From Candidatus Eiseniibacteriota bacterium (GTDB taxonomy: Bacteria > Orphanbacterota > Orphanbacteria > Orphanbacterales > Orphanbacteraceae): 64,000 nucleotides of DNA. The notes under the pieces were generated by a model. That model worked only from the letters and a program-made list of their open reading frames with translations, had not been told where the DNA came from and made no database searches. Made by a program: the position numbers and the translations under genes. The stretch spans positions 62,001 through 126,000 of the forward strand of contig JAJRWB010000014.1 in NCBI GenBank assembly GCA_024276995.1, read 5' to 3'. Within the stretch, counting starts at the first letter, position 1. Each line of letters begins with the position of its first letter. Of this stretch, positions 40,220 to 59,174 are shown one piece after another.

Positions 40220-40234
40220 TGGCACATCCTTTGC
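40220..40234 (+). promoter_or_regulatory. Sigma-54 (-24/-12) promoter of the lpxL-lptC-lptB-rpoN operon
   Basis: TGGCAC-ATCCT-TTGC matches the sigma-54 core exactly, GG (40221-40222) and GC (40233-40234) being 10 bases apart. It lies in the 123-bp gap between kdsD and the lpxL-like gene. A short dyad CCCTC-GGG-GAGGG (40191-40203) is 16 bp upstream. The last base adjoins the -35 box of a sigma-70 promoter. The rpoN gene is third downstream of the first gene of this operon. Confidence 0.72.
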
Positions 40235-40263
40235 TTGACATGGCGGAATCCCCCTTATATTGT
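40235..40263 (+). promoter_or_regulatory. Sigma-70-type promoter abutting the sigma-54 site
   Basis: TTGACA at 40235-40240, 17-bp spacer, TATTGT at 40258-40263 (TATATT at 40256-40261 is an overlapping alternative with 15 bp). The -35 starts immediately after the sigma-54 -12 element, so the two holoenzymes should exclude each other. Confidence 0.62.
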
Positions 40264-42488: not shown

Positions 42489-43937
42489 ATGGAAATGAAG
42501 TTGGGCCTTCAGGCGCGGATGCTGCAGACGCAGAAGCTGGTAATGACGCCCCAGCTCCAGCAGGCGCTCCGTTTTCTCCAGATGCCCACACTCGAGCTGC
42601 AGCAGGTTCTGAAACAGGAAATCCTCCTCAACCCGGTACTCGAAGAGGTGGACGAGATCCTCGACGGCGAAGAGGAGGAGGCGGAGGCGCGCCGGGAAGA
42701 GCCGGAAGGGGCCGCGGAAGGGGCGAAGGAGGACGGCGATGCCCAGGGGGAAGAGAAGCAGCCGGAAATCGACTGGGACGAATACTTCCATTCCCCACAG
42801 GATTACAGCTACAGGCGGGAGCAGGAAGGGGGGAGGGACGAAACGTACGAGCGGGTCCTGTCCACCACGGTGCTCCTGTCGGAGCATCTTCTCTCGCAGC
42901 TTCGCATCTCCACCGACGACGACGAGATCCTGCGGATCGGGGAGTTCCTCATCGGCAGCCTCGACGAGCGGGGATTCCTAACCCTCGAGCTTTCCGAGGT
43001 AGCGGAATCGGTCCGCGCCGGCATGGAGAAGGTAAAAGAGGCGCTCGAGCTGATCCAGACATTCGACCCCGCCGGCGTGGGGGCGGCCGATCTACGGGAG
43101 TGTCTCCTCCTCCAGTTCCGCAGCGCCGGCGACGATCAGAGTCTCGCCTTCCGGGTGGTGCGCGATCACTTCGATGATTTCGTGCAGAACCGCTACGCCG
43201 AGATCGCGAAGAAGCTGAAAACCACGGCCGGCGAGATCCAGGACGCTTCCCGCGAGGTGGGCAAGCTGAACCCCCGGCCCGGGATGCTCTACGCCGACGA
43301 GGATCCGCGCTACATCACGCCCGACCTTGTGGTCGATCGGGTGGGCGATGAGTACGTGGTCTACCTGAATGATCAGAACGTTCCGAGACTTCGCGTCTCC
43401 CGTACGTACGAGAAGTACATTACCGGCGGGAACAGCACCGACAGCACGACGAAGGAATACATCCGGAGCAAGCTGAACGCGGCGAACCAGCTCATCAACA
43501 CGATCGAGAGGAGACGCCGCACCATGGTGAAGGTGATGAAGGCGATCGTCGACAACCAGCGGGAGTTCCTGGAGAAGGGAATCCGATTCCTCAAGCCGAT
43601 GACGCTCCAGCAGGTGGCGGATGAGATCGGTATGCACGAGTCGACGGTGAGCCGCGTCACGTCGAGCAAGTATGTCCAGACCCCTCGCGGAGTGTTCGAG
43701 CTGAAGTTCTTCTTCTCCTCGAGCATACGATCGTACTCCGGCGAGGATGTGTCCACCAAGGGGGTCAAGGACAGGGTGAGGGAGCTGATCGAAAAGGAGG
43801 ACAAGGCGCGTCCATTGAGCGATCAGAAGATCGTGGACCTGTTGAAAAGCGAGGGCTTCATGATCGCACGCAGAACGGTGGCGAAGTACAGGGAACAGAT
43901 GGGACTGCTTTCCGCGCGCTACCGGAAACAGTTCTGA
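42489..43937 (+). CDS. rpoN: RNA polymerase sigma-54 factor
   Basis: 482 residues from ATG 42489 (GGGAGG upstream). Region I is Gln/Leu-rich (LGLQARMLQTQKLVMTPQLQQALRFLQ), then an acidic region II (about 55-105), the core-binding region III and the RpoN box ARRTVAKYREQMGL near residue 460, which reads the -24 element. HTH part: LQQVADEIGMHESTVSRVTSSKYVQTPRG. It is preceded in the same operon by a sigma-54-type promoter, suggesting autoregulation. No sigma-54 activator (AAA+ enhancer-binding protein) gene is in the window. Confidence 0.97.
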   Translation: MEMKLGLQARMLQTQKLVMTPQLQQALRFLQMPTLELQQVLKQEILLNPVLEEVDEILDGEEEEAEARREEPEGAAEGAKEDGDAQGEEKQPEIDWDEYFHSPQDYSYRREQEGGRDETYERVLSTTVLLSEHLLSQLRISTDDDEILRIGEFLIGSLDERGFLTLELSEVAESVRAGMEKVKEALELIQTFDPAGVGAADLRECLLLQFRSAGDDQSLAFRVVRDHFDDFVQNRYAEIAKKLKTTAGEIQDASREVGKLNPRPGMLYADEDPRYITPDLVVDRVGDEYVVYLNDQNVPRLRVSRTYEKYITGGNSTDSTTKEYIRSKLNAANQLINTIERRRRTMVKVMKAIVDNQREFLEKGIRFLKPMTLQQVADEIGMHESTVSRVTSSKYVQTPRGVFELKFFFSSSIRSYSGEDVSTKGVKDRVRELIEKEDKARPLSDQKIVDLLKSEGFMIARRTVAKYREQMGLLSARYRKQF

Positions 43938-50193: not shown

Positions 50194-51276
50194 TTACTTC
50201 CTCGTGAACCGGAAGAAGATCACCGACCCGAGTAGAAGGAAGATCGCGTTGCCGAGCCACGCGGAGACGACGGGCGGCACGACATCGTTGTAGCCGAGCG
50301 ACTGGCCGACGCGGATGGCGAGGTAGTAGACGAAGCAGATCACCAGGGCGAGAGAAAAACCGATGGCGTTCCCTCCCCGTCTCAGGAGCGCCCCGAGAGG
50401 AGCGCCGAGAAGGACGATGATCAGGTTGTTGAAAGGGTACGAAAGCTTCATGTGGAGATCGACTTCTTGCTTTAGGACATCGCCGCCGCTCAGCTTCGCC
50501 TTCTCCACGAACCGGCGAAGTTCGCCGTAGCTCATCTCCTTCGGTCCCTTGCGGATCTCCGACAGTTCCACCGGGCTTTCCGTCAATTCGGGAAATGCCC
50601 GCGAATCGAACTCTTCCTCCTCGAGAAGGCGATCGCTGTCGAACACCCTCCGGTAACCGTTGTGAAATGTCCAGATCCCGTTTTCCCAAACCGCTTCCTT
50701 CGCATCGATCCGTTCGACGACGGTAAAGTCGGACAGCCGGGAAATAACGACGTCCCGCATCGTTCCCCTGCCGGTGTCGAGCCGGCCGATGGAGAATATC
50801 CGCTCGCCTTCGCCTATGAAGTTCACGTTCGTATGAATCTTCGAGGAGCGCGCCCTTTCCGGCTTGATCTTCATCCTTTCGATGGTTTTCACGCGAACGG
50901 CGCTTTCGGGCGCCACCGTCTCCCCGCCCAAGAGCGCGAGAAAACTCACCGCGAGACCCGCGGCGAGCACCGGGAGAAGCGATCTGCGGATGCTGATACC
51001 GGCGCTCGACGTGGCGATGAACTCGTTCGCCCGGGCGTGGGAACCGAGGGCGAAAAGGCACGCGAGGAGCATGCATACCGGTAGGGTGAGAAGAACGATT
51101 TCCGGAAGACGGTAAAGATAGTAGAGGAGCACCGTGAGAAACGGAACGCCGTGGTCGATGAAGTTGTCGATCTTCTCGAACAGGTCGATCACGATGAAAA
51201 TCGACAGGAACGACACGATCGAAAGGGCGAGTGTGCGAACGTAGCGACCGAGGATATACGTGTCGAGGATCCGCAT
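50194..51276 (-). CDS. lptG: LPS export permease LptG (YjgP/YjgQ family)
   Basis: 360 residues from the ATG ending at 51276, overlapping the lptF stop. It starts RILDTYILGRYVRTLALSIVSFLSIFIVIDLFEKIDNFIDHG, the family opening, with three N-terminal and three C-terminal membrane helices around a periplasmic beta-jellyroll (about 100-250). With LptF and two LptB it extracts LPS from the inner membrane and passes it to LptC. Confidence 0.92.
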   Translation of the reverse strand: MRILDTYILGRYVRTLALSIVSFLSIFIVIDLFEKIDNFIDHGVPFLTVLLYYLYRLPEIVLLTLPVCMLLACLFALGSHARANEFIATSSAGISIRRSLLPVLAAGLAVSFLALLGGETVAPESAVRVKTIERMKIKPERARSSKIHTNVNFIGEGERIFSIGRLDTGRGTMRDVVISRLSDFTVVERIDAKEAVWENGIWTFHNGYRRVFDSDRLLEEEEFDSRAFPELTESPVELSEIRKGPKEMSYGELRRFVEKAKLSGGDVLKQEVDLHMKLSYPFNNLIIVLLGAPLGALLRRGGNAIGFSLALVICFVYYLAIRVGQSLGYNDVVPPVVSAWLGNAIFLLLGSVIFFRFTRK

Positions 51277-52664
51277 CACGACGCGTCCCGGCCGCTTCGC
51301 CCGGAGGAGATCGCCGGGAGGAGGCGAATCCGCCCGGCGGCGCGGGGAAAGCGGAAGAAGCGCATTCTGCCGGCGCTTCGGCGGATCAGGATGATACCGA
51401 GACTGCCCATGAGAACGTTGGCCGCCCACATCGAGACGGCGGGGGGAAGGTAGCCTCTGTCCGCGAGTTTTTCGCCCCCCGTGAGGAAAAGGTAGTAGAT
51501 CACGAAGAAGGCGATGCTGAAGCCGGCGCCCACCCCCAGACCGCCTCTCCTCGCGCGGATCCCGAGCGGCCCCCCGAGGAGGACGAAGACGATGCACGCC
51601 ACGGGAAGGGCGTATTTCTTGTGGACCTCCACCATGTAGCGGTCGATCTTCTTTTGCCGGTCGTCGATCCTCTTCGAAAGGGCGGCGAGCTCGCGTCCCG
51701 AATCACGGATGGCCCGGCCGTATTCCCGGACGCGGAACGGTTCGATCGATCGTTTTTCCTTTTCCGGGGGACCCATCCTGTGGAGAATATCGAGCCGGGC
51801 GGCAATGAAGTTCGAAATGCTCTTCCTCCCTTCCGCCTCGATCTTGGCGATCTCTTCCCTGTACCCGGAAACCCGTTCGAGCATGTCGGCGGAACTGAGT
51901 TCCCTGTCCCCGCGGGTCTTCTTCTCCGATCGGACGAGATCGGACCCGATATTGGTGATTCTCACCGTGTGGGTTTCGAAGAGGATCCGCTGGTAGCGAT
52001 CGGGGTTCTTCGCGTCCACCGCGTGGATCTCGCCGTCCTCGAGGTAGAGGTTGAGCACGTTTCCCCCGTCGGTGAATTCGAGGCGTCCCCGTTTCGCGAT
52101 GATCGTTTCCTCTTCCTTGCCGGCGGCGTTCTTCTGGATCGTCACCGACTCGATCTCCGACGTTCTCTCGTTCAGCTTTTCCACGCGGATCGTATATCCT
52201 TGAACATTGTTGAAGGCGCCCGCCTTGATCGCGAGGGCGGGCCGTTTCCTGTGAATACTGATCAGAAGACTCGCGAGTCGATGGTTCGCGTCGGGAAGGA
52301 CATCGTTGTTGAACTGGACGAGGAGCGCGGCGACGACGATCGATGCGACGATCGGCGGAGAGAGAATCTGCCACATGCTCATCCCGGCGGCCTTCATGGC
52401 GGTGATCTCGTTGTTCGCCGAAAGCCGGCCGAACGCCATCAGGGCGGCGACGAGTGTCGCCATGGGAACGATGAGCGCCACCATCCATCCGAGGGAGAGG
52501 AAGAAGACCTCCGCCACCACGCCGAGGGCGATTCCCTTCCCGAGAAACAGGTCGATGTAGTCGACGAGCATATCCATGACCAGGATGAAGGTGATCACCG
52601 CCATGCCGGCGAGGAAAGGCCCGATGTGCTGCTTGAGGATGTAGAGGCTCAGGGTACGTGTCAT
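51276..52664 (-). CDS. lptF: LPS export permease LptF (YjgP/YjgQ family)
   Basis: 462 residues from the ATG ending at 52664 (GGGAG on the minus strand upstream); a longer frame from 52751 overlaps the promoter. It starts TRTLSLYILKQHIGPFLAGMAVITFILVMDMLVDYIDLFLGKG. It is about 100 residues longer than E. coli LptF; the extra part lies at about 225-330, between the jellyroll and the last helices, and is highly charged and helical (LERVSGYREEIAKIEAEGRKSISNF...). First gene of a two-gene minus-strand operon. Confidence 0.9.
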   Translation of the reverse strand: MTRTLSLYILKQHIGPFLAGMAVITFILVMDMLVDYIDLFLGKGIALGVVAEVFFLSLGWMVALIVPMATLVAALMAFGRLSANNEITAMKAAGMSMWQILSPPIVASIVVAALLVQFNNDVLPDANHRLASLLISIHRKRPALAIKAGAFNNVQGYTIRVEKLNERTSEIESVTIQKNAAGKEEETIIAKRGRLEFTDGGNVLNLYLEDGEIHAVDAKNPDRYQRILFETHTVRITNIGSDLVRSEKKTRGDRELSSADMLERVSGYREEIAKIEAEGRKSISNFIAARLDILHRMGPPEKEKRSIEPFRVREYGRAIRDSGRELAALSKRIDDRQKKIDRYMVEVHKKYALPVACIVFVLLGGPLGIRARRGGLGVGAGFSIAFFVIYYLFLTGGEKLADRGYLPPAVSMWAANVLMGSLGIILIRRSAGRMRFFRFPRAAGRIRLLPAISSGRSGRDAS

Positions 52665-52686
52665 TCCAGCTCCCTTCCAGCATCCC

Positions 52687-52715
52687 ACCTTATAAGATGA
52701 ACCCCGCCCACTCAA
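52687..52715 (-). promoter_or_regulatory. Sigma-70-type promoter of lptFG
   Basis: On the minus strand TTGAGT (52710-52715) and TAAGGT (52687-52692) are separated by 17 bp; TATAAG overlaps the -10 region at 15 bp. The start codon of lptF follows about 20 bp later. Confidence 0.45.
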
Positions 52716-52878
52716 TCGCCTTTCCATCGATTCGTCTCCGGTGGAGGACAAGCCGTCCCGCTCCGGGTACGTTTGGATCGACGTCGCGCCGGAAACGGGA
52801 GAACCGCGGGGCCGACGGTGTGGTGTGGTTCTTGCATCTCATTGATACGGCACAGGATACAATCCTGTCCCTCCGCGA

Positions 52879-52910
52879 GCCGCCACGGCGGTTTCCCCTG
52901 CCGTGGCGGC
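52879..52910. repeat. Perfect 11-bp inverted repeat upstream of the sprA sigma-54 promoter
   Basis: GCCGCCACGGC (52879-52889) and its exact complement GCCGTGGCGGC (52900-52910) are separated by 10 bases, so the arm centres are 21 bp (two helical turns) apart. The right arm ends 5 bp before the sigma-54 element. It has no following T run, so it is not a terminator. A site for a dimeric regulator is the simplest reading. Confidence 0.6.
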
Positions 52911-52915
52911 ACCGA

Positions 52916-52930
52916 TGGCACGACGTTTGC
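52916..52930 (+). promoter_or_regulatory. Sigma-54 (-24/-12) promoter of sprA
   Basis: TGGCACGACGTTTGC matches the core TGGCACG-N4-TTGC exactly, GG (52917-52918) and GC (52929-52930) 10 bases apart. It is in the 399-bp divergent gap between lptF and sprA, giving a leader of about 120 bases. No convincing TTGACA-type promoter lies on this strand in the gap; TACAAT at 52858-52863 has no matching -35. Confidence 0.72.
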
Positions 52931-53010
52931 GATTCTCATCATGGTTTTCACCCGGCGGCGAGGTCTGTCCGGATGTCTATGGAATCGGTTCATTTCCCCA
53001 GGCGGGGGAA

Positions 53011-53040
53011 GGGTCGCCGGAAACGGGGATCCCGCGACCC
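53011..53040 (+). promoter_or_regulatory. Hairpin in the sprA leader just before its ribosome binding site
   Basis: GGGTCGC (53011-53017) pairs with GCGACCC (53034-53040); past one mismatch the stem adds two more pairs. It lies about 10 bases upstream of GAGAGG (53050-53055), the likely SD for TTG 53064, and could influence translation or mRNA stability. Confidence 0.35.
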
Positions 53041-53063
53041 GGCCGCCGGAGAGGTCACCTATC

Positions 53064-56000
53064 TTGGGCAGGGTTTCCACACGCCCTCACCGGGCGATAC
53101 TTGCCCTTCTCCTCGGCTCGCTCCTGCAGGCGGGGACGCTGCTCGGCGTTGAGGTGCCGATCCGCGAACCGAGTCTCATCCGGAACTGTGTCGACCGGAA
53201 TTATCCTCCCCCCATGGCGGGCGTGGGCGGCGCCCCGTACCCGGAAGGGCCGCTCACGCGCCTCAAGGTGAAGGAGAAGATATCGAAGACGACCACCACC
53301 GTGCGGGTCGACCTCGATCGCCGCGTCGTGGTGGTGGTCGCCTCGAGGGACGGCGTCCCTCTCACGTGGCCGTGGGTCGGCACCTTCGAGGAGTACCGCG
53401 CCGAGTGGGAACGATTCGAACGCTTTCGGAAAATGAAAAACATCGGGGTGGGGGGGAAGAAGAAGGGAGGGGGGCCGCGTGAGACGGGCCTTTTCGATAT
53501 CGACCTTCCGGTTCGCTTCCCCAAGACGCTGAGCCGCATTATCGGCCAGGGGGCGAACATCAAGGTTTCGGGAAGCGAATCGATCACCTTCTCGGGGGAA
53601 ACGCGTTACAACCTGAAGAACCGGGCGAACGAAGCGGGCGGCCAGAGGATCTTTCCCGAACTCGACATGCGCCAACAGCTCCAGGTGAACCTCACCGGAA
53701 CGATCGGCCAGAAGGTGAAAGTCGAGATGCAGCACAACTCCGAATCCCAGGTCCCCCTCGAGAACAGGATCAAACTTCGATACGAGGGTGATGAAGACGA
53801 GGTGATCAGCAAGATCGAGGTGGGGAACACGAACCTGAGTCTCCCGGGAAACCAGTTCGTCAGCTTGAGCGCGCAACAGCAGGGCCTGTTCGGCATCAAG
53901 GTGATGGGCAAGGCGGGAAAGCTCGACTTCACGTCCGTTCTCAGCCAGCAGCAGGGACAGACCGACCGGGAAACGTTCTCCGGCCGGTCGAGGCGCGACT
54001 CGGTGGTCATCGACGACTTGAACTACGTTCGGAACCGCTATTTCGTGGTAAACGACTACGATTCGATCGTCGACATTCGCGTCTTTCTCGACGACGACAA
54101 CGTGACCAACAACGACGGCTCCCAGCTCCCCGGAAAGGCGTTTCTCTACGACACCACCGACGCGTTCAACCGAGACGTTTTCGAGATCGGGGCTTTCGAC
54201 GAACTCGTCGTGGCGCAGGACTTTATCATCCTGAAGGAAGTCGGCCTTCTCCAGATGCAGCGCTCCCTCCGGGATAATGAGCAAATCGCCGTCTGGTTCA
54301 CCCGTTGGAACGGCGCCCTCGGTCGGATCGACACGGTCGGCTTCGTTCCCGACCCGGTGCCGGCGGTGTTCGCCGCCGGCGACAGCGTCGAGCTGAAGAT
54401 GATCCGGCCCCGTGCCGAGGATTACCGTCCTCCGCCGATCGACGACAGCCAGACCGATTCGAGGTTCGCCCTCACGTGGTACTACCAGCTTCGGAACGTC
54501 TACGACTTGAGGGCGCGGAATATCAAGAAGGAGAACTTCGAGATCACCATCTACCGGAAGGAGCCCGGCGCCACCGAGCGGTTCGACCGCGACGAGAACG
54601 GCATACCGTTCATCCAGATCATGGGTCTCGACCTGATCGGCGACAACGAGACGAATCTTCCCGATTTCAAAGTCGACGATTTCTACTGGGCATGCGATCC
54701 GAGGGTCAATCCGGGCACGTCGAACCGTCTCGACGAGCGCTTCCGGCCCCTCTCGGCGCCCGACACCCTCGGCCTTCCGCCGGGGAACCTCCCGTTCTGG
54801 CCCGACCGGCTCGTCTATCTGGACGACGGGCTTCTCTGGTTCCCCGATCCTCGCCCGTTCGATCCGCAGTACAACCACCAGAAATGCGGCGACGAGGTGC
54901 TCACCCTCGCCGAGAGGAACCGCACGATCTACGACAAGTACGATCCGAAGGCGACCGACTCGCGCTACGAAATCGAGGTGAAGTACTCCACCGCGCAGTC
55001 ATCGTTATCCCTCGGTCGATCGAATATCCTCGAAGGGAGCGAGGTGGTGAAACTGAACGGCCGGACACTCACGCGGGGGACCGATTACCGAATCATCTAC
55101 GAGATCGGCCAGATCGAATTCATGACCGACGAAGCGCTTGACGACAACGCCGACATATCGATCGACTTCGAGTACGCTCCTTTTCTCGCGCAGGCGCAGA
55201 AATCGCTCATCGGGACCGCCCTTTCGTACAATATGTCCGACAAGCTGAGCATGTCGGGGATCTTCCTCTACAAAGGGAAACGCACTCCCTTCCGGCGTCC
55301 CCGTCTCGGCCAGGAGCCGTCCCGGATCTTCGTCAGCGGCCTGTCGCTCAACACGAACCGCCAAGTCGATTTTCTCACCCGGTGGATCGATGCCGTGCCC
55401 GGCATCCGGGCGCGGGAGAAGTCGAACCTCTCGCTCTCGTTTGAAACGGCGGCCACCTTCCCGAACCCGAATACGAAGAACGCGATCTATGTCGATGACA
55501 TGGAAGGAACGGAAGAGGTCTCTTCGTTCGGCCTCACCCGGCGACAGTGGTACTACATGTCGATTCCCTCGTTGCCGGGGGCGGTGAGCGAACTCGAACC
55601 GTCAAACCGCTTCATCGACGTCGACTGGTACAACCCGAAAAACGCCACCACCCGAGGCGACCTGAACCCCGACCTCACGCAGGACGAGAAGATCAAGTTC
55701 ATCCCGGTCATCGAGGTCGCCCTACGGAAGGGGACGATCGCGAGCGGAGGCGCGGACGGAAGCGGTGGGTGGGGAGGGATCATGCGCCTCGTGTCGAAGA
55801 CGGGACTCGATTTGAAGGACCGGAAGTTTCTCGAGGTGTGGGTGAACGATTTCGGGAAGAACAAGGGCCGGATGCACATCGACATGGGGCTTCTCGGCGA
55901 GGACGCGATGTGGGGCCTCGATCCCCCCAACGGCGAGATCGATACGGAAGACTCGAACCTCGACGGTGTGCTCGACGATTCGGGCAACGACGACCCGCTG

Positions 56001-59000
56001 CTCGACGAGGACACCGGCTTCGACGGCCTGTTCGACGCGGACGAACCTCCCGGCGCCGAGGATGACAACTGGGCGTACGACGAGAACGAGCCGGACGACT
56101 ATTCGAGGATCAACGGGAGCGAGGGAAACGGCTATCTCGACACCGAGGACCTGAACGGGAACGGGGGGAGTCCCGACAGGGAAAAGGGATACTTCCGATT
56201 CGATCTCGATTTCGAGAGTGGTGAGAACGTGGTCGCCCACGGCTTGCAGGAGGAAGGGAAGAACTGGAGGCTCTACAGGATTCCTCTCGCGAAGGCGAAG
56301 GCGACGACCATCGAAAGCGAGCCGACCTTCGATCAGGGGATCAAGTATGTGCGAATCTGGTTCGAGGGGGTCGACACCACCGACGCCCGCTTCCAGATCG
56401 CCTCGATGGAAGTGACGGGAAACCGCTGGCTCGAAGCGGGGATCCAGGATACATTGGGGAACCGGATCGCCGATTCCGACCTCCCCCCGGACGAGATTTT
56501 CGCCGCCGGCGTGATCAACAACAAGGACGGCGAGGACTATGACGCCCCCCCGGTGGAGATTCTCGTCCAGCGGGGGATCCCGGAGAAGGAACAGTCGCTC
56601 CTCGTGCAGTACGAAAACATCAGGCCGGGGCACACGGGAACCGTCTTCCGGGCCCTCTTCGAGGACGAGGACTACACCCGCTATGAGCAGATGGAATACT
56701 GGGTGCAGCTCGCCGACCCGAACCGCCCGGAAGAGACCGACGTGTTCGAAGATCCCTTCCCTGTTTTCTTCTATCGTTTCGGCGGCGATTCGCTCAATTT
56801 CTACGAGGTGAGCGACACCCTCGATGGAAGCGGATGGCAGCGGGTGGAGGTCGACCTCGCCGAGATGACGCGCCTCAAGCTGATCGAAGAGAGCGATACG
56901 ATCTCTTTGTGGGGGAAGAATGTTCCGGTCCGCTCGAGCGAAAGGGATGGGCGGGTGCTTCGTGTGGTCGGCCAGCCGAGCATGACGAAGGTGAGGCGTC
57001 TCACCTTCGGTGTGATGAACCCGTCGAAGACGAAAGAACTGACCGGCATCATATGGGTCGACGATCTTCGCCTCGTGAACGTGAAAGGGGACGCCGGCTA
57101 TGCGGCGCGCTTCGGCCTCGATGTTTCCCTTTCCGATTTTCTTTCGCTCAGCGGCGACCTGCGTGTCGTCGGGAAGGAGTTCCGGCAGCTCACCGGAGGC
57201 GGTGGAGGACCGAGCGGCAGAACGGAGGACAATCCGCGCAAGGGGAGCGACAACCGCTCGCTTTCCCTCAAGGGGAAGGTCAATCTCTCGAAGTTTCTCG
57301 AAGGTCCGGGGATTACGCTGCCGGTCGACTGGGGATGGTCGTCCACGCTGAGTGCGCCGGAACTGCAGACGGGGTCCGACATCGTTCTCGAGAATCCCGC
57401 GGATGAGAAATCAGAGAGCCATGCGAAGAACATCGGCATCAACCTCAACCGATCACGCAAGTCGGGGAATCCCTTCCTCTACTACACGCTCGACAACATG
57501 AACCTCCGTGTATCGGCCGATCGGAAGGAGGCGCTCGGCCCGACGAAGATCGACAGTTCGTGGTCGGTCGGGGTCGACTGGCGCTACACGTACAGCCCGC
57601 GGTTCAAGACCGACCTCACCGTGTTCCGCGACTGGCGGGTGAACCCTCTTCCCAAGAGCGGCCAACTGACGGCGAGCCGAAAACGAAACGAAACGAGAAG
57701 CCTCGATGTCCGCTCCGGGAACACGAGAATCTCCGCGGGGCGCACAACGACGTCGTCCTTCACGTTCGCCATGTCGCCGCTGAACAGCAAGACGGTGGGG
57801 ACGAATTTCGAATTCTCCGCCACGAGGGATCATCTCTATGGGAATCCGCTTTCCATCTTTCCGTCGCTCAACAGCGGGTTCGAAACGAAGCGGAATCACA
57901 GCGGCAGCGTGACATACACGCCGGGGTTCCGGAAGTATCTCGGGTGGTTGAATCCGAAATTCTCCTACGATACGCGCTTCACAGACGATCAGCCTCCCAC
58001 GAGGACGGTGACGGAGGTCGACCCGGTCACCGGGGAGGTGAGCACCGTGCGGCGGATTCACAACGTGGGGAACCAGAACACGTCCCGCGTCGACTTCTCG
58101 GTGAGCCTCCGTAAGCTCGCCGCCCTGCTTCCCGGCGGGACGAAACAGACCGGTCCCGGGGCGAGGCAGAGCAACGCTCCGCCGGACAGCGCCTCCGCCG
58201 CGCCGGCGAATAGGAAAGGGCCGGGCGCCTTGTCGATCGCGAAGGCGATCCGTTCCTTCGGTTCGAGGATCGGCGATATTAGCGGATCGGTGGCTTTGAA
58301 GAAGAGCTCGGGGTACAATGATCTTTCGGGGAGGCCCGGCCTCGACTACCAGTTCGGCCTGAAATCGGAGGTGGATGAGAACCTCCAGTTCAACCAGGGA
58401 GTGCAAAGGAGGAGAGCGGACAAGAGCCGGGACCTGCAGACGCGCGCCTCAACGGCGATACGTCTCCCCCGTTCGATGAATCTGCGCCTCTCGTTCAACC
58501 GCTCGCTCCAAAAGAGCGACCAAAGCCGCAACAAGTCGGAAAAGGAATCGATCACCTGGCCGGAATTCAACTATTCGTGGGACGGAATCGAGGATCTGGG
58601 AAAGCTCAAGAAGTACGTCAAGAATGCCTCTCTCAACGTGTCGTACCGCGGAAAGAGGGACCGCTCGGGCGTCTCCCTCTCCGACCTCGACACGGAGAGG
58701 AAATCGAAGAGTTGGTCGCCCCTCGCGCAGATCGACGCCGAGTGGGTGAACGGGCTGAGAAGCCAGGTCTCCGTCGACCAGTCGGAAGAGCGGGATCGGA
58801 ACCTGAGAGGCGGGGGTTCGGAGACGATCCGCACGAGCCGGGACGTCACCGGATCGGTGAGCTACACGAAGTCGACCCGCAAGAAGGTGAACATCCCGAT
58901 CCTCGGGAAGGGGAGGAAGGGGAGCACCTACACGGCGACCACCACGTTCCGGCTTTCGGTCCGCTACTCCCGTCAGAAGGAGGAGGAACCGAAGCGCGAT

Positions 59001-59174
59001 CTTCTGAATACGAACAGGCGAACATTCGATATATCGCCCTCCGTCTCGTGGACATGGCTGCAGAATCTGTCGGGAAGCCTCGAACTGAGATTCGGGGAGA
59101 ACAGGGACCTGAAGAATGAGAACAAGAGTACCCGGACGGTGGGGGCTTCGGTTTCCGCGCTCTTCAAGTTCTAG
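53064..59174 (+). CDS. sprA: Cell-surface protein SprA (type IX secretion translocon)
   Basis: 2036 residues from TTG 53064 (GAGAGG upstream); the earlier in-frame start would lie before the promoter. Signal peptide about 1-28 (AILALLLGSLLQAGTLLG). SprA/Sov features: FDIDLPVRFPKTLSRIIGQGANIKVSGSESITFSG near residue 150, NRIKLRYEGDEDEVISKIEVGNTNLSLPGNQF, SALFGIKVMGK-like segment (QGLFGIKVMGKAGKLDFTSVLSQQQGQ), and NAIYVDDMEGTE at about residue 810. An Asp-rich calcium-type stretch spans about 960-1045. The C-terminal half is long strands ending in Phe (SALFKF). In Bacteroidetes SprA is the ~36-strand outer-membrane channel of the T9SS, working with PorV. Somewhat shorter than the usual ~2400. 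Confidence 0.93.
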   Translation: MGRVSTRPHRAILALLLGSLLQAGTLLGVEVPIREPSLIRNCVDRNYPPPMAGVGGAPYPEGPLTRLKVKEKISKTTTTVRVDLDRRVVVVVASRDGVPLTWPWVGTFEEYRAEWERFERFRKMKNIGVGGKKKGGGPRETGLFDIDLPVRFPKTLSRIIGQGANIKVSGSESITFSGETRYNLKNRANEAGGQRIFPELDMRQQLQVNLTGTIGQKVKVEMQHNSESQVPLENRIKLRYEGDEDEVISKIEVGNTNLSLPGNQFVSLSAQQQGLFGIKVMGKAGKLDFTSVLSQQQGQTDRETFSGRSRRDSVVIDDLNYVRNRYFVVNDYDSIVDIRVFLDDDNVTNNDGSQLPGKAFLYDTTDAFNRDVFEIGAFDELVVAQDFIILKEVGLLQMQRSLRDNEQIAVWFTRWNGALGRIDTVGFVPDPVPAVFAAGDSVELKMIRPRAEDYRPPPIDDSQTDSRFALTWYYQLRNVYDLRARNIKKENFEITIYRKEPGATERFDRDENGIPFIQIMGLDLIGDNETNLPDFKVDDFYWACDPRVNPGTSNRLDERFRPLSAPDTLGLPPGNLPFWPDRLVYLDDGLLWFPDPRPFDPQYNHQKCGDEVLTLAERNRTIYDKYDPKATDSRYEIEVKYSTAQSSLSLGRSNILEGSEVVKLNGRTLTRGTDYRIIYEIGQIEFMTDEALDDNADISIDFEYAPFLAQAQKSLIGTALSYNMSDKLSMSGIFLYKGKRTPFRRPRLGQEPSRIFVSGLSLNTNRQVDFLTRWIDAVPGIRAREKSNLSLSFETAATFPNPNTKNAIYVDDMEGTEEVSSFGLTRRQWYYMSIPSLPGAVSELEPSNRFIDVDWYNPKNATTRGDLNPDLTQDEKIKFIPVIEVALRKGTIASGGADGSGGWGGIMRLVSKTGLDLKDRKFLEVWVNDFGKNKGRMHIDMGLLGEDAMWGLDPPNGEIDTEDSNLDGVLDDSGNDDPLLDEDTGFDGLFDADEPPGAEDDNWAYDENEPDDYSRINGSEGNGYLDTEDLNGNGGSPDREKGYFRFDLDFESGENVVAHGLQEEGKNWRLYRIPLAKAKATTIESEPTFDQGIKYVRIWFEGVDTTDARFQIASMEVTGNRWLEAGIQDTLGNRIADSDLPPDEIFAAGVINNKDGEDYDAPPVEILVQRGIPEKEQSLLVQYENIRPGHTGTVFRALFEDEDYTRYEQMEYWVQLADPNRPEETDVFEDPFPVFFYRFGGDSLNFYEVSDTLDGSGWQRVEVDLAEMTRLKLIEESDTISLWGKNVPVRSSERDGRVLRVVGQPSMTKVRRLTFGVMNPSKTKELTGIIWVDDLRLVNVKGDAGYAARFGLDVSLSDFLSLSGDLRVVGKEFRQLTGGGGGPSGRTEDNPRKGSDNRSLSLKGKVNLSKFLEGPGITLPVDWGWSSTLSAPELQTGSDIVLENPADEKSESHAKNIGINLNRSRKSGNPFLYYTLDNMNLRVSADRKEALGPTKIDSSWSVGVDWRYTYSPRFKTDLTVFRDWRVNPLPKSGQLTASRKRNETRSLDVRSGNTRISAGRTTTSSFTFAMSPLNSKTVGTNFEFSATRDHLYGNPLSIFPSLNSGFETKRNHSGSVTYTPGFRKYLGWLNPKFSYDTRFTDDQPPTRTVTEVDPVTGEVSTVRRIHNVGNQNTSRVDFSVSLRKLAALLPGGTKQTGPGARQSNAPPDSASAAPANRKGPGALSIAKAIRSFGSRIGDISGSVALKKSSGYNDLSGRPGLDYQFGLKSEVDENLQFNQGVQRRRADKSRDLQTRASTAIRLPRSMNLRLSFNRSLQKSDQSRNKSEKESITWPEFNYSWDGIEDLGKLKKYVKNASLNVSYRGKRDRSGVSLSDLDTERKSKSWSPLAQIDAEWVNGLRSQVSVDQSEERDRNLRGGGSETIRTSRDVTGSVSYTKSTRKKVNIPILGKGRKGSTYTATTTFRLSVRYSRQKEEEPKRDLLNTNRRTFDISPSVSWTWLQNLSGSLELRFGENRDLKNENKSTRTVGASVSALFKF

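Follow-up and report, generated by a model that had tools for sequence, protein, structure and literature searches.

The window, a 64-kb stretch of a Candidatus Eisenbacteria genome, contains a divergent gene pair: sprA, which encodes the outer membrane translocon of the type IX secretion system (T9SS), and a gene for an lptF/lptG-type LPS export permease (Table 1). In profile searches the sprA product scores far above the cut-off of its equivalog model (TIGR04189; E 3.7e-159, 532 bits versus a cut-off of 200) and also matches SprA_N (PF14349), and the lptF product falls just under its own cut-off; the gene calls of an earlier sequence-only reading therefore stand. The same conserved neighbourhood includes rpoN, about 10 kb from the sprA core, with an intact RpoN box (ARRTVAKYR). 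The gap between lptF and sprA holds both a sigma-54-type -24/-12 core and an inverted repeat, as that reading had claimed. The core has the form TGGCAC-N5-TTGC, with GG (52917-18) and GC (52929-30) ten bases apart. The repeat is a perfect 11-bp dyad with arms GCCGCCACGGC (52879-52889) and GCCGTGGCGGC (52900-52910) separated by 10 nt, and it ends five bases before the TGG of the core. By sigma-54 geometry, we infer a start of sprA transcription near 52942.

Table 1. Coordinates of the features discussed (positions in the window unless another locus is named)
Feature	Position	Strand	Remark
Further exact -24/-12 core, TGGCACATCCTTTGC, heading the lpxL-lptC-lptB-rpoN run	40220..40234	+	conserved in six genomes
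Sigma-70-type promoter, TTGACA-N17-TATTGT	40235..40263	+	directly abuts the sigma-54 -12 element
rpoN (sigma-54)	42489..43937	+	PF00309; TIGR02395, 443 bits vs 277
lptF/lptG-type LPS export permease	51276..52664	-	TIGR04407, E 6.1e-63, just short of the cut-off
Likely separate lptF promoter (TTGAGT ... TATAAGGT)	52687..52715	-	TTG...TAAGG pattern, by eye
17-bp palindrome ACAGGATACAATCCTGT (-90 to -74), possible activator site	52852..52868		speculative
Perfect inverted repeat with 11-bp arms and a 10-bp spacer (-63 to -32)	52879..52910		not conserved
Sigma-54 -24/-12 core of sprA, TGGCACGACGTTTGC	52916..52930	+	exact match
Predicted sprA transcription start	52942	+	from sigma-54 geometry, with -12 placed at the C of GC
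sprA (T9SS outer membrane translocon)	53064..59174	+	TTG start; predicted leader ~121 nt
Small secreted peptides	L077:2198-2479, L138:383-628, L144:352-609

Conservation of the core upstream of sprA

Could the core be a chance match in a GC-rich gap? The pattern TGGCAYN5TTGC turns up in 0-0.1% of 300-bp dinucleotide shuffles. Over the whole genome it is only modestly more frequent than its reversed control (19 versus 13, about 1.5 times), which leaves room for chance and means that a single match alone proves little. Our sample of the phylum consists of seven genomes, all from one family. The region upstream of sprA is readable in six of them, representing five genera and including the window's genome; in the seventh (G006) the contig ends. 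Every one of the six has an exact TGGCA[C/T]-N5-TTGC before sprA, approximately 105-150 bp from the likely start codon. Between the divergent lptF and sprA, the core reads TGGCACGTCCCTTGC in G001 and G005, TGGCATGGGGCTTGC in G002, TGGCACGCCCCTTGC in G003 and TGGCATGTAGATTGC in G004; SprA protein identity is 57-60% in these five relatives, which have the same divergent lptF. In an ungapped alignment of the five genera centred on the site, identity is 28% in the 75 bases upstream and 30% in the 75 bases downstream of it, compared with 94% at the ten fixed core positions. Such a pattern is typical of a functional element amid drifting DNA. Its conservation at an equivalent position in six of six genomes, between randomised flanks, refutes a chance match at the sequence level, and we give that explanation practically no weight. 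The sequence-only reading would have taken disappearance of the element from close relatives as a refutation; the -24/-12 core is kept there, whereas the dyad is not. In other phyla, the DNA upstream of sprA is readable at only five loci (most are cut off) and shows no core; the few readable loci of Krumholzibacteriota and Latescibacterota lack it as well, and the element is thus no general feature of T9SS. Judged from the DNA, it is highly likely that 52916-52930 is the -24/-12 region of a real sigma-54 promoter driving sprA in Candidatus Eisenbacteria.

The lack of a credible sigma-70 promoter was also asserted earlier. A consensus scan yields no sigma-70-like site in 52600-53100, but the scan is insensitive and misses the likely lptF promoter too, so sprA could still have an additional promoter, of sigma-70 type but with an unusual sequence. 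The lptF element, a TTG...TAAGG pattern approximately 20-50 bp before the gene with similar counterparts in the relatives (by-eye comparison), is probably lptF's own housekeeping (sigma-70) promoter. With such a promoter near the lptF start, sprA and lptF are probably under different sigma factors. Might sigma-54 polymerase instead be silent on the core, or a road-block, with sprA read from an unrecognised housekeeping promoter? Silent sigma-54 sites are generally known, the insensitive scan would agree with this idea, and the sigma-54 element of the rpoN operon (see below) is interlocked with a sigma-70 promoter. However, unlike the rpoN operon, sprA has no TTGACA/TATAAT-like pair nearby that is conserved among the relatives compared, and the distance of the core from the sprA start is fitting for a promoter. 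We consider a silent or obstructive site quite improbable. A structured leader in 52942-53070 was ruled out, as the predicted fold is no better than that of shuffled sequences (z -0.42).

Inverted repeats upstream of the core

The sequence-only reading took the dyad for a regulator site. If so, it could serve an activator bound unusually close to the promoter, or a repressor or anti-activator over the edge of the -24 element, perhaps shared with lptF. The centres of its perfect arms are 21 bp apart, about two helical turns. It lies between divergent genes and is the only intergenic repeat of such quality in the window; a perfect 11-bp inverted repeat with a spacer of up to 30 appears in 1% of shuffles of the lptF-sprA gap. 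Against this, the 64-kb window contains five perfect 11-bp inverted repeats with short spacers, and a comparable repeat is absent from the dyad position in the five other genomes that keep both the promoter and the gene order, where identity in the matching columns is at random level. The genome-wide search proposed for the composite motif gives 136 instances versus 151 in the control, that is, no enrichment. Hardly any other sigma-54 promoter in the window's genome is preceded by an arm of the dyad, and the two arms do not recur there as a pair. Neither conserved nor enriched, the dyad is ruled out as a conserved operator, and a regulatory role at sprA appears unlikely. It was also rejected as a terminator, as it has no T-run and its flanking genes are divergent. 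Most likely, this repeat is specific to its lineage and lies outside the core mechanism; it may bind something in the window's lineage, or it may be incidental.

The palindrome ACAGGATACAATCCTGT is at a more usual distance for an enhancer than the dyad. It is the sole copy in the window and is seen neither in the relatives nor before the genome's other sigma-54 promoters. A search from -200 to -27 before sprA found no conserved enhancer, only genome-specific inverted repeats.

Surface and motility genes in a sigma-54 regulon

Is sprA one of many genes behind such a site? We compared the DNA around nearly all TGGCA[C/T]-N5-TTGC sites in genomes G000-G004, leaving sprA out of the count. At 73 of the 110 sites, the downstream ORF has a homologue behind a site in another genus. 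These form 20 groups, 11 of which span at least four genera. The reversed motif, put through the same pipeline, gave 3 shared sites out of 60, and none of its groups reached three genera. Examples of the groups include (i) a FliA/WhiG sigma factor, FlgF, a type IV pilin, LytB and an HU/IHF-like protein; (ii) a sensor kinase, a response regulator with GGDEF and an MglA-like (Ras/Arf-type) GTPase; (iii) a beta-helix protein, C25 peptidases and proteins with a C-terminal FlgD_ig/T9SS-type sorting domain; and (iv) an LPS acyltransferase gene heading the run lptC, lptB, rpoN. In three genera, small secreted peptides of 80-95 amino acids, with a signal sequence and a tryptophan-rich tail, are encoded right behind exact sigma-54 sites; they received no family assignment. 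One sigma-54-led cargo-type gene of the window's genome (L087:351-2234) is apparently split into ORFs of 287 and 340 amino acids, the second bearing the sorting domain; its relatives have a single ORF of approximately 620-630 amino acids.

The promoter of the rpoN run has an unusual arrangement. In all six genomes (five genera), TTGC of the sigma-54 element is fused to TTGACA with no gap, and in most of them a TAT-type -10 follows after 17 bases. Sigma-54 and sigma-70 polymerases cannot share the DNA of 40220-40263, which suggests that their use is mutually exclusive, with feedback on rpoN. On a tentative reading, sigma-54 polymerase that sits inactive on the element joined to the sigma-70 -35 box could block the housekeeping promoter.

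Sigma-54 promoters require an AAA+ activator. The window's genome has 27 strong PF00158 (sigma-54 activator) domains, at least 13 of which carry a GAFTGA-type contact loop by the crude pattern G[AS][FY]TGA. No activator gene lies in the 64-kb window, the nearest on the contig being approximately 110 kb away, so the activator of sprA must be encoded elsewhere in the genome. In the mechanism we propose, sigma-54 RNA polymerase would sit on the sprA core as a closed complex, and only when an AAA+ enhancer-binding protein bound upstream hydrolyses ATP would transcription begin at the predicted start. sprA would thus join the genes for surface structures and motility in the sigma-54 regulon. The step from the element to sprA expression, its dependence in vivo, and the identity and site of the activator are what we infer here. 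The earlier proposal that sprA depends on an activator ATPase gains strong support at the level of sequence from the six-of-six conservation, the regulon and the intact rpoN.

What would such a promoter control? Profile searches place PorV above the cut-off in all seven genomes, and each genome (G000-G006) has approximately 100-150 matches to the type A sorting domain (TIGR04183). A dedicated activator would probably turn on the export route used by roughly a hundred surface proteins. The GldM model (TIGR03517) has no match in G000-G006, and the control matched nowhere either; the T9SS motor of Eisenbacteria may be different or too divergent. Two C25 peptidases behind exact sigma-54 sites (L147 and L185) were considered as PorU and dropped: a different C25 protein adjoins PorV and is the likelier PorU, so the two are probably cargo. 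A weaker -24/-12-like element, e.g., GGGTACGCTTTTTGC, recurs in four genera (L228, L223, L224, L229) ahead of the genes that lead up to the PorU homologue beside porV. With two mismatches, these sites are too weak to be claimed as sigma-54 promoters.

Sigma-54 and T9SS control in other bacteria

To our knowledge, control of T9SS expression has been described in just a few Bacteroidota, PorXY-SigP being an example. Our literature search found no paper pairing Eisenbacteria with T9SS or with sigma-54. The closest parallel is Flavobacterium psychrophilum, in which a mapped and mutated sigma-54 promoter, its element confirmed by reporter mutagenesis, drives the gliding operon remFG-sprCDBF (PMC9723704). 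As in that regulon, a -24/-12 promoter here feeds T9SS- or gliding-linked genes and envelope functions are co-regulated; the F. psychrophilum targets, however, are the SprB adhesin operon and chaperones, (PMC9723704), whereas the gene controlled in Eisenbacteria, a different phylum, encodes the translocon. PorU and GldN of F. psychrophilum are under another motif, SM6, and the main text does not mention SprA (PMC9723704). In Porphyromonas gingivalis, T9SS genes are reported to be under PorXY-SigP (PMC7712824). This resembles the present case in that T9SS component genes have dedicated, signal-dependent control, but it works through a two-component system plus an ECF sigma factor instead of sigma-54. 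Francke et al. (2011; PMC3162934) describe sigma-54 as a controller of the exterior (LPS, flagella, surface structures), and the same classes recur here; type IX secretion, sprA and Bacteroidetes are unmentioned in their main text. The class II pilE of Neisseria meningitidis is reported to have sigma-70 and sigma-N at one promoter region, like the site at 40220, although it is a different gene and not rpoN's own operon (PMC6755734). Sigma-54 acting on T9SS-linked genes is thus a known idea from Flavobacterium. As far as the literature searched goes, sprA as a target is new, and the remark in the sequence-only reading that sprA under sigma-54 is undescribed remains valid.

It is tempting to go further and see sigma-54 as the master switch of the outer surface in Eisenbacteria, acting on the T9SS translocon, some of its cargo, LPS acylation and transport, pili, flagella and, with feedback, its own gene; we offer this as a tentative possibility. 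If true, sigma-54 would gate the sole T9SS translocon, and about a hundred sorted proteins would depend on it for their export. With a sigma-54 promoter at sprA, the whole export route could stay off until a signal reaches the activator ATPase. T9SS cargo is anchored to LPS in known systems, and sigma-54 control of sprA would link T9SS to LPS transport. We know of no cultured members of Eisenbacteria; the conserved regulon, with its approximately 20 groups, provides concrete, testable promoters in this phylum.
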